Shown: piece after piece, positions 7,595-47,311 of the stretch
How the letters are laid out: the number at the start of each line of letters is the position of its first letter
How positions within the stretch are numbered: position 1 is the stretch's first letter
IMG/VR virus record: IMGVR_UViG_3300029922_000001
Location: 356,512-420,511 of that record
DNA: 64,000 nucleotides
DNA from: a virus
Strand: one strand, 5' to 3'
The notes under the pieces: model-generated
Told to the model about the DNA's origin: nothing
Seen by the model: only the letters and a program-made list of their open reading frames with translations
The model's database searches: none
Made by a program: the position numbers and the translations under genes

Positions 7595-8605
7595 ATGACA
7601 AAGACATTAGAACAAGAAATCAAACAATTAATTAAAATTTTTAATTTTAATTGTACTATTAACAAATTCGAAGATAAAGTTAATTGGGCTTATATTTCCA
7701 ATAATCAAAAATTATCTGAAGAATTCATTGAAAAATATCAAGATAAAGTTAATTGGGCTTATATTTCTATTTATCAAAAACTATCTGAAGAATTCATTGA
7801 AAAATATCAAGATAAAGTTAATTTGGCTTATATTTCTATTTATCAAAAACTATCTGAAGAATTCATTAAGAAATATCAAGATAAAGTTAATTGGACTTAT
7901 ATTTCCGAATATCAAAAATTATCTGAAGAATTCATTGAGAAATATCAAGATAAAGTTACTTGGGCTTATATTTTTATTTATCAAAAATTATCTGAAGAAT
8001 TCATTGAGAAATATCAAGATAAAGTTGATTGGGCTAGTATTTCCAATAATCAAAAATTATCTGAAGAATTCATTGAAAAATATCAAGATAAAGTTACTTG
8101 GGCTTATATTTCCAATAATCAAAAATTATCTGAAGAATTCATTGAGAAATATCAAGATAAAGTTGATTGGGCTTATATTTCCAGTAATCAAAAATTATCT
8201 GAAGAATTCATTGAAAAATACAATTTAACTAAACCAATTAATAATTGGAATTATATTTCTAAAGAAGAAAAATTAGCAATAATCAAGAAATGTGGATTAT
8301 ATGAAATTATTGATGATTATATTCTTGCTTATAAATCTACAAGAGAAGATGGATATTCTATTTATAATTATCAATATCAATATAAAGTCAGTGAAGAATA
8401 TGAAGCACATTGTAATTGTAATATTGATAATGAAAATAGTTTTGGATTATCAGCTTGGACATATGATAAAGCTTTAAAATATCATAATAAAGGAGAATTA
8501 TATAAAGTGAAAATCCATATAGATGATATTGGAGCATTAGTGCATAATGGTTTTAAATTAAGATGTAAAAAAATGAAAGTGTTAGAAAAAATGGAAATAA
8601 ATTAA
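7595..8605 (+). CDS. tandem-repeat protein with DUF5758-like C-terminus
   Basis: 336 residues. From about residue 27 to 210 there are seven full copies plus two partial copies of a 23-residue repeat (EEFIEKYQDKVNWAYIS.. QKLS), a repeat type seen in phages and large DNA viruses. The C-terminal region (YKVSEEYEAHCNCNIDNENSFG...) resembles DUF5758-type domains. -10 TATACT 7583-7588, six-base gap. Repeat number may vary by recombination. Function unknown; a protein-interaction solenoid is plausible. Confidence 0.75.
   Translation: MTKTLEQEIKQLIKIFNFNCTINKFEDKVNWAYISNNQKLSEEFIEKYQDKVNWAYISIYQKLSEEFIEKYQDKVNLAYISIYQKLSEEFIKKYQDKVNWTYISEYQKLSEEFIEKYQDKVTWAYIFIYQKLSEEFIEKYQDKVDWASISNNQKLSEEFIEKYQDKVTWAYISNNQKLSEEFIEKYQDKVDWAYISSNQKLSEEFIEKYNLTKPINNWNYISKEEKLAIIKKCGLYEIIDDYILAYKSTREDGYSIYNYQYQYKVSEEYEAHCNCNIDNENSFGLSAWTYDKALKYHNKGELYKVKIHIDDIGALVHNGFKLRCKKMKVLEKMEIN
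7670..8222 (+). repeat. 69-bp coding tandem repeats
   Basis: Seven full and two partial 69-bp units (23 codons). Units are near identical at DNA level around GAAGAATTCATTGA and vary mainly at four or five codons, suggesting recent expansion or gene conversion. Confidence 0.9.
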
Positions 8606-8606
8606 T

Positions 8607-8879
8607 ATGGATAAAACACTACAAAATAAAATTAATGGATGGGCATTAAGCTGGCTTAAAAAGAATCATTCGTATCATTGGGAATATTCTAAAACGGCAA
8701 ATTATGATGTTTCTGTTGAGCATCAAGACGAACATCATTATTCAGAATATACCGTAGATCCTGGTTATACCCGAATTATGTTAAAAAATGATGATGGTCA
8801 AGTTTGGATGATTCAAGATATTTACGATAGTAATTATTCATTGAACAATCTTCTGATGGAGATTTTTGCTTATATCTAG
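8607..8879 (+). CDS. hypothetical protein, paralogue of 9460 gene
   Basis: 90 residues, about 75-80 percent alike by eye to the product of 9460-9735 (both begin MDKTLQNKIN.WAL.WLKKN). Follows the repeat gene by one base without its own promoter. The copies flank the gene at 8918. Unknown function. Confidence 0.7.
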   Translation: MDKTLQNKINGWALSWLKKNHSYHWEYSKTANYDVSVEHQDEHHYSEYTVDPGYTRIMLKNDDGQVWMIQDIYDSNYSLNNLLMEIFAYI

Positions 8880-8917
8880 AAAACCCCCAACAAAGAATCC
8901 ATAGGTATACTCTAATT

Positions 8918-10414: not shown

Positions 10415-11575
10415 ATGGAAGAATTTACAGAAGAAATTAATGAAACATCTAGAAAATTAGCTAGTATTCAAAGGATTTTAGCCTTGGAACCAATTCCAGG
10501 TGCGGATCGTATTGAAACAGCTACAATTTTGGGATGGAAGGTCGTAGTAGAAAAAGGAAAGTATAGAGTTGGGCAATTAGTTGTATACGCTGAAATCGAC
10601 AGTTTATTCCCTGCTAGACCTGAATATGAATTTCTTTCTAAGACTGGTTATCGTATCAAAACCATTCGATTAAAACAGCAGGTAAGCCAAGGCATTGTAT
10701 TTCCATTGTCAGTTTTAAAGTGGAATGATAACATCAAAATTATTGGTGACGAAGTGTTGGATGATAATTATGATTACATTAATGATATGTGGAATGAAGA
10801 ATCGCCTTTGCTATTACTTCAAGATATGAATAATGATTCAAATCCTGCTATTTTTCTTGCTGAAGGAACTGATGTTACTGAATGGATTGGTGTAACCAAA
10901 TATGAACCAGTTGTACCTGCACAATTACGGGGAGTAGCTAGAGGTGGTTTTCCAAGTTGGTTGCATAAGACGGATGAATGTCGGATTCAGGCTATTCCTG
11001 ATTTATTAGAAAGACACATTGGTACAACGATTAGAGGACACGAAAAGCTCGACGGCAGTAGTTGTACTATGTATATTCGCAATGGTGATTTTGGAGTATG
11101 TTCTAGAAATTTGAATTTAAAGCACACTGAAGGTAATAGTTTCTGGGAAATAGCTATGAAGTTCCAAGTTGAAGCCATGATGAAACATTGTTTCCCAGAT
11201 TATAATTTTGCAATCCAAGGCGAACTAATCGGTCCTGGCATTCAAGGTAACAAATATAATCTTAGAGAAACAACGATTAGATTGTTTAATGTGTTTGATA
11301 TTGATAAAGATGAATACTTGCATGATCTTGAATCAAAGTATGTTGCTCAACAATTAGGTTTAGAGTGGTGTCCTTGGGTGATGGATTATGTTATTACTGA
11401 AAACACCACAGTTGAAGAACTATTGTTGTTAGCGCAAGGTCCATCGGCTTTAAATCCTAACCAGGAAAGAGAGGGGTTGGTTTGGCGACCATTAGTTGAG
11501 TCTAAAGATGATAAAATCGGAAGATTTTCCTTTAAGACTATTTCTAATAAGTTCTTGCTAAAAAACGGAGAGTAA
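10415..11575 (+). CDS. RNA ligase, Rnl5/DraRnl-like
   Basis: 386 residues. The N-terminal part (about 12-100) resembles the OB-like domain of DRB0094-type ligases (GADRIETATILGWKVV). The nucleotidyltransferase core follows: motif I EKLDGSS (Lys211 as AMP acceptor), motif III QGELIG (Glu270), motif IV EGLVW (353-357) and motif V FSFKTISNKF (371-380). The family joins RNA 3'-OH/5'-phosphate ends in duplexes via ATP. -10 TATACT 10402-10407, seven-base gap. One of three ligases here. Confidence 0.85.
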   Translation: MEEFTEEINETSRKLASIQRILALEPIPGADRIETATILGWKVVVEKGKYRVGQLVVYAEIDSLFPARPEYEFLSKTGYRIKTIRLKQQVSQGIVFPLSVLKWNDNIKIIGDEVLDDNYDYINDMWNEESPLLLLQDMNNDSNPAIFLAEGTDVTEWIGVTKYEPVVPAQLRGVARGGFPSWLHKTDECRIQAIPDLLERHIGTTIRGHEKLDGSSCTMYIRNGDFGVCSRNLNLKHTEGNSFWEIAMKFQVEAMMKHCFPDYNFAIQGELIGPGIQGNKYNLRETTIRLFNVFDIDKDEYLHDLESKYVAQQLGLEWCPWVMDYVITENTTVEELLLLAQGPSALNPNQEREGLVWRPLVESKDDKIGRFSFKTISNKFLLKNGE

Positions 11576-29384: not shown

Positions 29385-29459
29385 ATGACACAAAACGCCC
29401 ACAAACTAATAGTAATGGGAATTAAAACCAACAAAACATATAAGGAAATAAAAATATAA
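29385..29459 (+). CDS. small ORF preceding RNA ligase, 24 aa
   Basis: Five bases after TATAAT 29374-29379; MTQNAHKLIVMGIKTNKTYK... ends on the first base of the ligase ATG (TAATG). Looks like a coupled leader or small basic peptide. Confidence 0.5.
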   Translation: MTQNAHKLIVMGIKTNKTYKEIKI

Positions 29460-30481
29460 TGATCAAGTTTTTGGAATATCCGTCAATCGAACAATTTCGC
29501 TCCGTAATTAAAGATTTTAGTCAGGCTGAATTTATTGGTTTAGATGAAGATGGAAATAAAGTTTATGATCGCACTAAACCTAAGCCAATTGTTACTTTTA
29601 GAGGGACAGTCAAGCTTCACGGAACCAATAGTTGCGTTGCATATCATAATGGTGAAATTGCAATTCAATCTCGTACACAAAATATTACACCAGAGAAAGA
29701 TAATGCTGGATTTGCTTCATTTGTAATGCAACATAAAGAAGCGTTTTTGAATATTTTTGATCAAATTTTAACAAATCATCCTACGGAAAAAACGATTTAT
29801 ATGTACGCCGAATGGTGCGGTGGCAACATTCAAAAGGGTGTAGCCATTGCTAACCTTCCTAAATCTTTCTTTATCTTTGATATTTGTATTTCTGATACAA
29901 ATGAAGAAGAGATTACTCGTGAGTGGATTGATATTACTCCATATAGAGATATTGATAATGGTATTTATAATATTTTCGATTATCCTAATTGGACTATGGA
30001 TATTGATTTTAATAACCCAGCTTTAAAACAAAATGATCTAATTGATATTACAATTGGAATCGAAGATGAATGCCCAGTTGGTAAAGCTTTTGGCTTCTCA
30101 GGTACGGGTGAAGGTGCTGTATGGTCAGCAATTCATAATGGAAAGCGTTATATCTTTAAGGTTAAAGGTGAAAAGCACTCAGTAAGTAAAGTAAAAACCT
30201 TAGCTAGTGTAGACGTTGAAAAGCTTAACGGAATTAATGAATTCATTGATTATGCTGTTACCGAAAATCGACTAGATCAAGCTATTGATACTGTCTGTAA
30301 AAATAGTCTAGATATTCAAAAAATGGGTGATATCATTCGTTGGGTAATGGCAGATGTAATTAAAGAAGAAACCGACACATTAGAATCTAATGGACTTACT
30401 ACTAAAGATGTTACTAGTAAAATCGCAGAAAAAGTTCGTAAAATGGTTAGTCTTCGATTGGATAAACAAAGCGGTTTATAA
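29459..30481 (+). CDS. RNA ligase, Rnl2-like
   Basis: 340 residues. Motif I KLHGTN (Lys52 as adenylylated Lys), SRTQNI motif Ia, motif III-like YAEWCGG (Glu118), motif IV EGAVW (218-222) and motif V FKVKGEK (233-239) fit the T4 Rnl2/editing-ligase type. Seals nicks in RNA duplexes with ATP. Coupled to the 24-residue ORF just upstream. Confidence 0.85.
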   Translation: MIKFLEYPSIEQFRSVIKDFSQAEFIGLDEDGNKVYDRTKPKPIVTFRGTVKLHGTNSCVAYHNGEIAIQSRTQNITPEKDNAGFASFVMQHKEAFLNIFDQILTNHPTEKTIYMYAEWCGGNIQKGVAIANLPKSFFIFDICISDTNEEEITREWIDITPYRDIDNGIYNIFDYPNWTMDIDFNNPALKQNDLIDITIGIEDECPVGKAFGFSGTGEGAVWSAIHNGKRYIFKVKGEKHSVSKVKTLASVDVEKLNGINEFIDYAVTENRLDQAIDTVCKNSLDIQKMGDIIRWVMADVIKEETDTLESNGLTTKDVTSKIAEKVRKMVSLRLDKQSGL

Positions 30482-31211: not shown

Positions 31212-31628
31212 ATGAATGAAGACAATCGACCTAAAGTTGGCGTAGCTGCAATGATTAAGCATAATGGCTGTGTCTTACTTGGATTAAGAGCAGGTAAAAG
31301 AGCTAATGGTAAGTGGGGTTTCCCTGGTGGTCATGTGGAATTCGCAGAACATCCAATTGATGCTATTGTTAGAGAAACGAAAGAAGAAACCAATCTAGAT
31401 GTTATCATTAGTGATAATTGGGATTTAGGATGGGCAAGCAATGTTTTCGAAAACTCACACTACATTACACTTTATATTGGTTGCGAACTAACTAATCAAT
31501 GTTGGTCAACTGATGTAGTCAGAATGGAACCAGATAAATTCTCAGAATGGAAATGGTTTGATATTAATGAATTGCCAGATAATTTAATGTTCGATAATAT
31601 GTACGAACTTATTAGATCGAACAAATAA
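31212..31628 (+). CDS. Nudix hydrolase
   Basis: 138 residues; Nudix box starting GGHVEFAEHPIDAIVRETKEET (39-60) matches GX5EX7REUXEEXGU except that Asn replaces the last Gly. Likely hydrolyses a nucleoside diphosphate-X compound, possibly 8-oxo-dGTP, NAD or RNA caps; substrate unknown. ATG 31212 six bases after TATAAT 31200-31205. Confidence 0.85.
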   Translation: MNEDNRPKVGVAAMIKHNGCVLLGLRAGKRANGKWGFPGGHVEFAEHPIDAIVRETKEETNLDVIISDNWDLGWASNVFENSHYITLYIGCELTNQCWSTDVVRMEPDKFSEWKWFDINELPDNLMFDNMYELIRSNK

Positions 31629-31630
31629 AT

Positions 31631-31657
31631 CCCCAATAGGAGAATTAGAGGTATACT
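31631..31657 (+). promoter_or_regulatory. orphan family promoter before RNA locus
   Basis: CCCCAATAGGAGAATTAGAGGTATACT is a standard member (-10 at 31652-31657), but no start codon follows at the usual distance; transcription would enter the tRNA-like locus about 90 bases on. Together with 57079 it shows the family also serves RNA genes. Confidence 0.6.
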
Positions 31658-31692
31658 CTAGACAACACAATCAGGAAAATCTTCAAGAAAGC

Positions 31693-31721
31693 TTGACAAA
31701 AGACTTCAAGATAGGTATAAT
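31693..31721 (+). promoter_or_regulatory. consensus sigma70 promoter for RNA locus
   Basis: TTGACA (31693-31698), 17 bases, TATAAT (31716-31721): a perfect host-type promoter, unlike the CCCCAA family. Predicted start lies just upstream of the tRNA-like element at 31746. Confidence 0.85.
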
Positions 31722-31745: not shown

Positions 31746-32009
31746 GCCCGATAGCTTGGGTTAACGCAGACTTAACAAGTAGATGTCTATATTGATTCAC
31801 TCATTGCGCAATGAGAAGAATAACGGGACACGCTGAATGGAAAATAGATAACTGAGATTAACACAGTTATTTATAAAGAAGACAGTAGCATAAAGAGAAA
31901 GCAAGTGAGGCTTAGAGTACGTAATGTTAATCACCCTCTAAGATAATGAGTAAGTAACGTAGTGGTGTTTGGTGAGTTTGATGTGTAGGTTCGATGCCTA
32001 CATCGGGCT
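31746..32009 (+). ncRNA. 264-nt tRNA-like RNA A
   Basis: GCCCGAT (31746-31752) pairs perfectly with ATCGGGC (32002-32008). A D-arm-like CTTGGGTTAACGCAG follows the 5' end and a perfect T arm GTAGG-TTCGATG-CCTAC (31985-32001) precedes the 3' end. About 180 extra bases separate them, with several hairpins and no obvious ORF. It could be an intron-bearing tRNA, a tmRNA-like molecule or a new class; I saw no convincing group I core or tag frame. Confidence 0.55.
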
Positions 32010-32013
32010 CGCG

Positions 32014-32709
32014 TTAAATATGTCTATTGTAAATATTTTTAATTAAATTGTTTACAATAGACCAATATTCATCTTTATGAGATTGAGTTAAGTGTTTGCA
32101 TTTAGATGAATCTATAGTACAAAATTCTATTCCATTTTCATTACATAAAATAGATTTTTGTTTGTCATTATTTTGAATTTTATTCAATTTATCTTGCCCG
32201 TAAATTGGTTCATAATGGAAAATACCATTAAGTTCAATAGCTAATTTCAGTGTTGGAAAATAAAAGTCTAATTCTGAATCAATCGCCTTATGTTTATTGT
32301 ATTCACAATTCAACTCTGGGTAATGTAATTGTATTTGTTCTTCAAGATAAACCTCTAATTTAGATCGTCTATTGCCATGTGTTTTGTTTTTATTGTTGTA
32401 GGTGGTGGCGCAACTATGATTACAGAAAAATCTTCCAGTATTTGATTTTTTTATTGCTCCTAATCTTACTGTTATTTTTTTACTACAACATGAACATTCT
32501 TTAGGAACTCTATATTTTATACTTTTTTGTGATGTCATGCACCTTGTAGAACAATAAAGTGGTTGATTTCTTTTAAGAGTTTTATTTATTTGAGATTTCT
32601 TTCTTATAAAATATAAATTACAAGCATAACAAATTAATTCAATTTGAGGATCACCTTTAAATTGATTTAAATATTCTATTGATATATTATTAGATAATGG
32701 AGTGTTCAT
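32014..32709 (-). CDS. zinc-finger/PD-(D/E)XK-type endonuclease
   Basis: 231 residues on the minus strand. Two Cys-rich fingers (CYAC...CSTRC and CSCC...CNHSC) precede a nuclease-like core KLEVYLEEQ...SELDFYFPTLKLAIELNG, the D-x(n)-E-L-N/H layout of Vsr/EDxHD-like phage homing nucleases. It is placed head-to-head inside a tRNA-like locus and is one of only two minus-strand genes seen here, typical of a mobile gene. Likely cuts DNA at intronless or endonuclease-free relatives. Confidence 0.7.
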   Translation of the reverse strand: MNTPLSNNISIEYLNQFKGDPQIELICYACNLYFIRKKSQINKTLKRNQPLYCSTRCMTSQKSIKYRVPKECSCCSKKITVRLGAIKKSNTGRFFCNHSCATTYNNKNKTHGNRRSKLEVYLEEQIQLHYPELNCEYNKHKAIDSELDFYFPTLKLAIELNGIFHYEPIYGQDKLNKIQNNDKQKSILCNENGIEFCTIDSSKCKHLTQSHKDEYWSIVNNLIKNIYNRHI

Positions 32710-32752
32710 AAATCTATCTTCTTAAAATAATCGAAGATTCCTTTTCGATTCC

Positions 32753-32781
32753 TTGACAGAGTATGAAAAACGAGGTATAAT
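32753..32781 (+). promoter_or_regulatory. second consensus sigma70 promoter
   Basis: TTGACA (32753-32758), 17 bases, TATAAT (32776-32781). It lies just after the endonuclease start on the other strand and restarts transcription of the RNA array. The first transcribed bases (ACATCCATAAGCC) resemble those after the promoter at 48724. Confidence 0.85.
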
Positions 32782-32972
32782 ACATCCATAAGCCAACGAG
32801 ATAAATATGGTCAAGTTCCGAAATGGGAACCGGAAAGGCTAATTGCATTACCTTCATCGGGTACGAGACGGATATATATACTACGTTGATGGTAGGATGA
32901 AATTTATTTCATGAATTAGGCTGAACTCCTAATGTATATAATAGGAAAGCTGAAATAATCTTTCCTGCGCAC
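32782..32972 (+). ncRNA. structured leader or RNA of unknown class
   Basis: No ORF. Strong hairpins: GTTCC-GAAAT-GGGAAC, ATGAAA-TTTA-TTTCAT, AGGAAAG...CTTTCCT and ATTAGG-CTGAACT-CCTAAT, the last a seven-base loop that looks like an anticodon arm (GAA). It ends in GCGCACGAGA, the same CGAGA that follows tRNAs here. Confidence 0.4.
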
Positions 32973-33071
32973 GAGAAAGAAAGCTATAAGTGGTACATAG
33001 AAAGCGCAGAAGTTTCTCTTTAAATTCAATAGAAAAAGAAGAGTGTATAGGTTCGATTCCTATCTTTCTCA
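32973..33071 (+). ncRNA. 99-nt tRNA-like RNA B
   Basis: GAGAAAG (32973-32979) pairs with CTTTCTC (33064-33070). D arm CTAT-AAGTGGTAC-ATAG and T arm ATAGG-TTCGATT-CCTAT are good. The 46 bases between give no canonical 5-bp/7-nt anticodon arm; the best stem TTTCT/AGAAA leaves a 13-base loop. CGAGA follows the discriminator A. Confidence 0.55.
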
Positions 33072-33080
33072 CGAGAAAAT

Positions 33081-33169
33081 GGGCGTTTGCCGAAGTTGGT
33101 TAACGGCAGTTCCACTATGACATAAAGTTGTAGTGGAGCTGATCAGGGGTTCGAGTCCTCTAGCGCCCA
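33081..33169 (+). tRNA. tRNA-like RNA C with 13-bp anticodon arm
   Basis: Acceptor GGGCGTT/AGCGCCC, D arm CCG-AAGTTGGTTAA-CGG and T arm AGGGG-TTCGAGT-CCTCT are tRNA-typical. Between them is a 13-bp stem (33108-33120 with 33128-33140, three wobbles) closed by the seven-base loop CATAAAG, where U33 is replaced by A. If read conventionally the loop centre is UAA. Possibly a modified or decoy tRNA. Confidence 0.55.
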
Positions 33170-33173
33170 CTCC

Positions 33174-33238
33174 GAGTTGTAACGATGTCGTAAACCTGTT
33201 TAAATGGTAACATACTGGAACGATTTAACGGACAATTC
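33174..33238 (+). ncRNA. 65-nt minimal tRNA-like element
   Basis: GAGTTGT (33174-33180) and ACAATTC (33232-33238) can form a seven-bp acceptor-like stem and both ends are flanked by CCGAG. No TTCGA T-loop is present, so the tRNA resemblance rests on stem length and position in the array only. Confidence 0.3.
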
Positions 33239-33239
33239 C

Positions 33240-33401
33240 GAGAGGGAAGAATATATAAGCAGTTAGTTAATGGTTATAATAGCATAAAGTAAGCATGAAG
33301 CAATTCATGGGTGAAAGCAGTAGTGAGTTAGAGTCTCAATTATATATTTGTTTAGTAAAGTAGAATTTTAATACAGATTAGTTCGAACCTACCCTCTCTC
33401 C
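33240..33401 (+). ncRNA. 162-nt tRNA-like RNA D
   Basis: GAGAGGG (33240-33246) pairs with CTCTCTC (33394-33400) with one wobble; a TTCGAAC T-loop follows ATTAG, but only three T-stem pairs form. About 90 extra bases lie inside, as in RNA A. Likely another enlarged or degenerate tRNA-like element. Confidence 0.4.
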
Positions 33402-46258: not shown

Positions 46259-47311
46259 ATGTTTAATGTAGAAAATCTTGAGAAAATGGTTACTGAGGGA
46301 TATATTCACAAGATTCCTCATGAAAATGGATTATATCATCTATTAAATTATACGCCTTTGGCTGCGTTCAAAAAGGTGTGGAATTTTGAAACTCTTAATA
46401 GTCGTGGTACGGTTATTGATAATGAATACAATATCATTTCAAAACCTATGGAAAAATTTTTTAATGATTTCGAAGTCACTGAAGGTTTAATTCCTTATCA
46501 TCTTCCATTTGATGCATTTACAAAATTGGACGGTTCTTGTATCATTGTGAGACGATTAGGTGATGAACTTCTTGTGAACACTCGTGGCTCATTTAAATCA
46601 CCGCAATCACAAATGGCTCATTTATTGTTAAAAGAAAAGTATAACATTAATGATTTTGATCCAAATTACACTTATATTTTCGAATATATCGGGTTAGAAA
46701 ATCGTATTGTGGTGTTATATAAAGAAAGCGATGTTGTTCTTTTAACAATGTATGATATGCGAACATTAGAAGAAGTTGAATATGATCAATTCCCTAAACA
46801 TTTCAATATTGTTAAGCGATATGATGGTCTTGATATTGAAACAATGAAATCATTAGACATTCCAAATGAAGAAGGTTTTGTTGTTAGATTTTCTAACGGT
46901 TTCCGTATGAAACTGAAGATGAAAACTTATATGTCACTTCATGGAATTGTTACAGGATTGAGTTCTAGAAAAGTTTGGGAATTAATGAAAGATGGAAAAT
47001 CTCTAGAAGAAATTGCATCTGCTTTACCAGATGAATTTTATGAATTCGCAACTAAAACAAAAACACAACTTCAGGATAAGTTTGATGCAATTGAAAGCAA
47101 GGTGCAGATTGCTCAGATGGGACTTGCGTTCGCAGGTTTAACTGAGCGAAAGGATAAAGCATTGTGGATTCAGGCTAATGCTAAGGATGTTGCACCATAC
47201 ATGTATGCATGGCTTGATGGTAAGGATTTCACCGCTGGTATTTGGAAGTCAATCTATCCTCCATATATCAGCCCTTTTGAAGAAAGAGCTAAGTTAACAG
47301 GAGAGAACTAA
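46259..47311 (+). CDS. RNA ligase, T4 Rnl1-like
   Basis: 350 residues. N-terminal SRGTVIDNEYNIISKPMEKFFN matches Rnl1 proteins; motif I TKLDGS (Lys89), motif IIIa-like YIFEYIG, motif IV EEGFVVRF and motif V MKLKMKTYMSLH follow. T4 Rnl1 repairs cleaved tRNA anticodon loops. -10 TATACT 46203-46208 with a 50-base leader, so not leaderless. Confidence 0.85.
   Translation: MFNVENLEKMVTEGYIHKIPHENGLYHLLNYTPLAAFKKVWNFETLNSRGTVIDNEYNIISKPMEKFFNDFEVTEGLIPYHLPFDAFTKLDGSCIIVRRLGDELLVNTRGSFKSPQSQMAHLLLKEKYNINDFDPNYTYIFEYIGLENRIVVLYKESDVVLLTMYDMRTLEEVEYDQFPKHFNIVKRYDGLDIETMKSLDIPNEEGFVVRFSNGFRMKLKMKTYMSLHGIVTGLSSRKVWELMKDGKSLEEIASALPDEFYEFATKTKTQLQDKFDAIESKVQIAQMGLAFAGLTERKDKALWIQANAKDVAPYMYAWLDGKDFTAGIWKSIYPPYISPFEERAKLTGEN

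Follow-up and report, generated by a model that had tools for sequence, protein, structure and literature searches.

Candidate short introns and tRNA-like RNAs in the tRNA gene arrays of an uncultivated jumbo phage

Giant phages may carry at least two kinds of tRNA intron outside the group I and bulge-helix-bulge classes: a hairpin of 17-31 nt, whose excision would leave 2-nt 3' overhangs and be followed by sealing with a phage ligase, and a 40-50-nt insert of the form 'AAAAG-hairpin-GTTCAGCA'. Four tRNA-like elements, E1 to E4, would be further products of the same system. We put this forward tentatively, with a little less than even confidence. In the literature searched, which left most subscription journals outside its scope, no phage was described as having short tRNA introns.

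The DNA analyzed here (the window, 64 kb) spans positions 356,512-420,511 of the 441,498-bp IMG/VR record IMGVR_UViG_3300029922_000001 (G000), a 441-kb uncultivated jumbo phage whose host is presumably bacterial. The window includes RIIA/RIIB-like genes, a NUDIX gene and a gene for a sigma-like factor. No close relative was found by searching cultured-phage DNA, a neighboring protein or RNA ligase 1; the DNA search gave only two short matches, both within the homing-endonuclease region, and the neighboring-protein search two weak matches of 18 residues each. A repeated motif, CCCCAATAGG..TTAGAGGTATACT, lies at window positions 31627-31660 and at about 30 further sites in the record, 5' of genes, and is probably an early or middle phage promoter.

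Layout and structure of the tRNA-like block

A preliminary description of the window had listed four tRNA-like elements with matching 7-bp acceptor stems, three of them with good T arms and none with a normal anticodon arm. All four were found at the coordinates it gave, and the block proved larger than it stated, as two promoters and the elements E0 and E3b also belong to it. The features are as follows (window positions).

31693..31721, plus strand: sigma-70 promoter, TTGACA-17-TATAAT, 12/12 consensus, 25 nt before E1
31746..32009, plus strand: E1, 264-nt tRNA-like RNA with a non-cloverleaf interior of about 190 nt and U73, then linker variant CGCGTTAAAT
32014..32709, minus strand: HNH-type homing endonuclease-like ORF of 231 aa that follows E1 directly
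32753..32781, plus strand: second sigma-70 promoter, 12/12 consensus, heading the downstream array
32797..32800, plus strand: first CGAG linker of the array (CGAGATAAATATGG)
32808..32971, plus strand: E0, RNA segment of about 164 nt between linkers, not tRNA-like, absent from the preliminary list
32973..33071, plus strand: E2, 99-nt tRNA-like RNA with a D-arm-like CTAT-AAGTGGTAC-ATAG and without an anticodon arm
33081..33169, plus strand: E3, tRNA with a hyper-extended anticodon arm, CAGTTCCACTATGAC-ATAAA-GTTGTAGTGGAGCTG (Rfam tRNA, fold)
33174..33239, plus strand: E3b, 66-nt element with a 7-bp closing stem, GAGTTGT/ACAATTC, and without a T arm (sequence and fold)
33240..33401, plus strand: E4, 162-nt tRNA-like RNA with an internal helix, AATATATAA/TTATATATT

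Across the four elements all 28 acceptor positions are paired, 28/28 with one G-U. The acceptors of E1 (GCCCGAT/ATCGGGC), E2 (GAGAAAG/CTTTCTC) and E4 (GAGAGGG/CCCTCTC) are Watson-Crick throughout (7/7), and that of E3 has seven pairs including the G-U. The T arms bear out the earlier account as well: those of E1 (GTAGG-TTCGATG-CCTAC) and E2 (ATAGG-TTCGATT-CCTAT) have 5/5 stems and that of E3 five pairs, while E4 has a T stem of only about 3 bp with a TTCGAAC loop and, after its acceptor, an encoded T-CCA. None of the four, as written, has a 5-bp stem with a 7-nt loop and U33. A strict search of both strands for an all-Watson-Crick 7-bp acceptor plus a 5-bp T arm with GTTCGA, at a span of 60-290 nt, returned only E1 and E2 in the 64-kb window and nothing in 60 order-1 Markov shuffles.

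Only E3 passed the Rfam tRNA gathering score (33.5 bits, cut-off 29), with E1, E2 and E4 below it. ARAGORN names E3 'Ser(act)', but the actual arm folds as a single, fully paired 17-bp extension without a canonical loop. The minimum free energy of E3 was far better than that of shuffled sequences (z -5.2), while E1, E0, E2 and E4 folded no better than theirs (z -0.4 to -1.2; E0, -0.4). Because E3 folds far above its shuffles and the cloverleaf scores of E1, E2 and E4 (given below) stay at shuffle level, E3 is a tRNA whose anticodon arm is sealed over 17 bp, and E1, E2 and E4 resemble tRNA in their upper half only. A shared E1/E4 core, 'TAGCATAAAG..GAAAGCA', was considered and dropped: its alignment gave p = 0.003-0.03 depending on gap cost, 1-6 of 284 control windows equaled it, and its pattern matched 72 times in a collection scan, the estimated chance level.

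The units of the block are separated by CGAG, the same linker that separates the other tRNAs of this genome, and in E2, E3b and E4 the linker GAG doubles as positions 1-3 of the element that follows. Genome-wide, CGAG follows the 3' ends of 32 tRNAs or tRNA-like elements, in five array regions and several single genes, so the block is part of the phage tRNA system and not an isolated curiosity. The linker, (C)CGAGATAAAT, directly follows the discriminator base, for example in the arrays L011:7449-8176 and L014:3886-4588(-), and is possibly a phage-specific 3' processing signal. A search of IMG/VR with the linker pattern gave 0 matches.

The ORF after E1 matched profiles for an HNH endonuclease (phrog_559, 2.9e-13) and a homing endonuclease (phrog_9084, 6e-9). 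A second HNH-like copy lies beside the tRNA array at G000:7460-8173, with a DNA match of 74% at G000:8274-8572. Each of the two similar homing-endonuclease-like genes (window 32014-32709(-) and L011 ~8180-8890(-)) is placed directly 3' of a tRNA or tRNA-like element.

Inserts in the anticodon arms of phage tRNAs

Outside the block, at least six tRNAs of the same genome carry inserts of 17-31 nt after anticodon position 35 or 36. They are given below with the anticodon loop obtained after removal.

G000:172713-172808 = L012:4714-4809, plus strand: Lys tRNA, 24-nt insert, loop CTTTTAA
G000:275383-275484 = L014:4384-4485, minus strand: Leu(UAG) tRNA, 18-nt insert, loop CTTAGAA
G000:253296-253394 = L013:16297-16395, minus strand: Thr(UGU) tRNA, 18-nt insert, loop CTTGTAA
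G000:245891-245993 = L013:8892-8994, minus strand: Gly(GCC) tRNA, 31-nt insert, loop TTGCCAA
G000:7974-8085 = L011:7974-8085, plus strand: Tyr tRNA, 18-nt insert, loop CTGTAAA
G000:251435-251524 = L013:14436-14525, minus strand: Cys tRNA, 17-nt insert, loop CTGCAAA

The restored anticodons agree with the tRNA bodies, Leu and Tyr having long variable arms, Cys a short arm and U73, and Gly a GCGG acceptor and U73. The six inserts have no common sequence; what they have in common is a design in which the end of the insert forms base pairs with the 5' portion of the anticodon loop. Cutting the insert out would yield a hairpin whose 3' end overhangs by 2 nt, and this was the best register in all six, tied with another in Thr and Gly. 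Sets of shuffled inserts reached this overhang in at most 4/6, and none of 20,000 reached five. In Tyr and Cys the insert lies one base earlier and the pairing is shifted equally, so the overhang stays at 2. The overhang depends on where the boundaries are placed: shifting all of them by one would give blunt ends, but the isotypes would then be at odds with the tRNA bodies. ARAGORN and Rfam either overlook these six tRNAs or label them wrongly. A seventh candidate, Gly UCC or Pro (G000:247524-247620 = L013:10525-10621, minus strand), breaks the insert rule.

A second family was reached through phages that share the Rnl2-like ligase described below. Scanning these phages for tRNAs with long anticodon arms gave two tRNAs with a common insert, and pattern scans of IMG/VR with a structural filter then gave 37 tRNA cases, of which 35, all from uncultivated phages, were aligned (alignment A1: L172:3613-3737, L178:601-719(-) and L191-L295). 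The insert is 40-50 nt long and consists of an A-rich stretch ('AAAAG'), a hairpin and an invariant GTTCAGCA. The hairpin covaries, one of its pairs being A-U in 16 members, C-G in 14, U-A in 2 and G-U in 2, and the acceptor pairs are kept in 35/35 tRNAs, with many double changes. In the main group, of Asp/Glu-type tRNAs, the insert lies at 29/30 and its excision would give CTTCC-ATGTCAA-GGAAG, an Asp(GUC) arm; in the other group it lies at 31/32 and excision would give Pro-type arms.

Rfam reads these genes only as tRNAs with a long insert and has no family for the intron itself. Three members had no match in cultured phages, and among the matches listed from cellular genomes there was no credible case, all of them failing on structure. 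The GTTCAGCA sequence was also sought inside G000, where it did not occur in a tRNA context.

Alternative readings and proposed processing

The preliminary description had proposed that E1-E4 could be intron-bearing tRNAs, tmRNA-like molecules, or decoy or chimeric tRNAs; the last of these readings may yet apply to E1, E2 and E4. From each element we deleted, in turn, all possible single segments and scored how well what was left formed a cloverleaf, with a D arm required, against shuffled interiors. The positive cases were three insert tRNAs of this phage (Lys, Leu and Cys) and one Asp tRNA of a different phage; they scored 10.9-12.6 (shuffle maxima 8.2-10.0). E1, E2 and E4 scored 5.5, 6.4 and 6.5, against shuffle maxima of 7.9, 9.3 and 8.7, respectively. 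E3 scored 8.9, a value contributed by its D arm, and no canonical loop was restored. Since no single excision of E1, E2 or E4 beats shuffled sequence, the ordinary intron tRNA is unsupported for these three; the idea of intron-bearing tRNAs finds its place in the six or more tRNAs elsewhere in the genome.

It could still be argued that E1 and E4 are ordinary tRNAs with longer, non-group-I introns of an unknown class, E1 being a Gln or Pro tRNA with an intron of about 190 nt near 31/32. The putative short introns of the same genome and the conserved intron that other phages have at 29/30 or 31/32 lend this some plausibility, and the best excision of E1 does give a 5-bp stem with U33 (shuffle p = 0.036). 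However, the candidate loops of E1 are not canonical and the cloverleaf scores fall below the shuffle maxima and far from the true cases, and we judge this reading decidedly improbable. Molecules of a known kind, either tRNA genes with a group I intron or tmRNA-like RNAs, would fit the lengths of 162-264 nt and the homing-endonuclease gene adjoining E1, and phages sharing the RNA ligase do carry tmRNA genes. Against them, the group I, tmRNA and permuted tmRNA models matched neither the whole block nor E1 or E4 by itself, even at E<=10, and ARAGORN called no tmRNA. The group I search, a check that the preliminary description had suggested, speaks against ordinary group I intron tRNAs, and the tmRNA proposal found no more support; the chance that either known kind explains the elements seems to us very slight. 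No other Rfam family matched E1 or E4 alone at E<=10, and E0 had no Rfam match. Two further identities were rejected: tRNA-Sec for E2, where the model match was weak and far below the cut-off (19.1 bits, cut-off 47, E = 1.4), and a tmRNA-like tag in E1, which has no resume codon and a reading frame that falls inside a hairpin.

Decay offers another account, in which E1, E2, E4 and E3b began as tRNA genes, received insertions and are now being lost, leaving only their ends tRNA-like. The interiors of E1, E2 and E4 fold no better than shuffles and do not splice to a cloverleaf, the homing-endonuclease gene adjoins E1, and the genome holds at least one clear tRNA remnant, all of which speak for this account. 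On the other hand, the acceptors are intact in all four elements and the T stems in E1-E3, whereas in the remnant the acceptor no longer pairs; both promoters are still there as perfect matches, and E4 keeps its encoded CCA. We consider decay the less likely account, though a serious rival, and, because the ends are intact and the promoters retained, favor the view that E1, E2 and E4 are functional tRNA-like RNAs.

The processing that we propose would draw on enzymes encoded in the window, which holds three ATP-dependent RNA ligases.

10415..11575, plus strand: ligase 1 (PF09414, 9.8e-24; phrog_968)
29459..30481, plus strand: ligase 2, Rnl2-like, 1.3 kb upstream of E1 (PF09414, 8.6e-14)
46259..47311, plus strand: ligase 3, T4 Rnl1-like (PF09511, 6.2e-12; phrog_562)

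Ligase 2 is about 40% identical to annotated phage RNA ligases, and 226 relatives of it were found, at no more than 56% identity; the tRNA arrays of those phages are without the CGAG linker. In one further large phage, a permuted tmRNA was seen at L093:1578-2002 (RF04321, 116.6 bits).

In the proposed scheme, the block, a segment of the phage tRNA gene system, would be expressed from its strong promoters as two transcripts and these cleaved at ends of the tRNA type, with the acceptor and T arm kept as a processing handle and the lower half remodeled. In the six clear members of the extended-arm class, the hairpin would be removed by a double-strand-specific, RNase III-like cut, possibly made by the host, that leaves 2-nt 3' overhangs. 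RNase III leaves products with a 2-nt 3' overhang, a 5'-phosphate and a 3'-OH; ends of this kind would suit ATP-dependent ligases directly, with no end healing, and one of the three phage ligases could join the tRNA halves. Profile searches of the phage record did not find the RNase III, EndA (PF01974) or RtcB (PF01139) families, so the cutter would be a host enzyme or an unrecognized phage one. E3, which resembles this class in having its anticodon sealed inside a hairpin, would likely release it by the same excision and ligation. E1, E2 and E4, which yield no cloverleaf by one excision, are predicted to be stable tRNA-like RNAs, and their likeliest role may lie in a contest with host tRNA-cutting enzymes, as bait or as tRNAs unrecognizable until processed. 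As a whole, this explanation, the sealed-anticodon mechanism together with E1, E2 and E4 as stable RNAs, is provisional, and we rate its prospects at just under even.

Should the excisions take place, phages whose hosts are presumably bacteria would remove tRNA introns by a route undescribed in the literature searched, phage RNA ligases would gain a second job besides the repair of cut tRNAs, and anticodons could in a simple way be hidden from tRNA-cutting defense enzymes until processing. The block adds RNAs that have only the processing half of a tRNA and could serve as bait or carry new lower domains. All of the insert tRNAs and tRNA-like RNAs escape gene callers or are given wrong names by them.

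Jumbo phages are described in a review as combining several RNA ligase families for tRNA repair (PMC7824862). The arrays described there resemble ours in their many arrayed tRNAs, several ligase families and a proposed conflict with host tRNA-cutting enzymes; they differ in that elements here keep only the upper tRNA half, and the passages of that paper on introns, anticodons and tRNAs describe no tRNA introns or tRNA-like RNAs of the present form. Another paper proposes that changes in the anticodon loop let phage tRNAs evade host tRNases (PMC10264068). There, as here, the phage alters the region attacked by anticodon nucleases, but by point changes, with introns or insertions unmentioned, whereas the present tRNAs have hairpins of 17-31 nt or a sealed 17-bp arm.

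Eukaryal and archaeal tRNA introns (at 37/38 and elsewhere; EndA/TSEN plus ligase; PMC4090602) are likewise short inserts near the anticodon that pair with it, and cutting and ligation would be common to both. Unlike them, the present inserts lie at 35/36 or 36/37, no bulge-helix-bulge was seen, EndA and RtcB were not found in the phage genome, and the host is presumably bacterial. Group I introns of bacterial and phage tRNA genes (RF00028; PMC3984707) also interrupt tRNAs and have homing endonucleases nearby, but the inserts here, at 17-50 nt, are far too short and gave no model match. In tmRNA and permuted tmRNA (RF00023, RF04321), a tRNA-like acceptor and T arm close a longer RNA, as in the block, which in contrast gave no model match and has no credible tag reading frame.

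Other RNAs in the tRNA arrays

Several further elements were observed in the tRNA arrays of this genome. The remnant mentioned above, at L013:10262-10330(-), has an orphan T arm, a CCACGAG tail and a mismatched acceptor and is a probable tRNA remnant. At L012:4373-4711, a structured non-tRNA element of about 310 nt (MFE z -2.5) lies between tRNA linkers and is closed by GAATTTTGG/CCAAAATTC. It contains GTTGGCTTAGAAACAGC, which is reminiscent of the L11-binding region of 23S rRNA; a 23S-like identity was rejected, there being no match to E. coli genomes.

One tRNA, at L013:16504-16587(-), has a 14-nt variable region yet a Thr-type CGU anticodon, an odd pairing of body and anticodon. Two tRNAs with CUA anticodons, of the amber suppressor type, were found at L012:4129-4199 and L015:3603-3673, and in some of its genes the phage may translate UAG as an amino acid.
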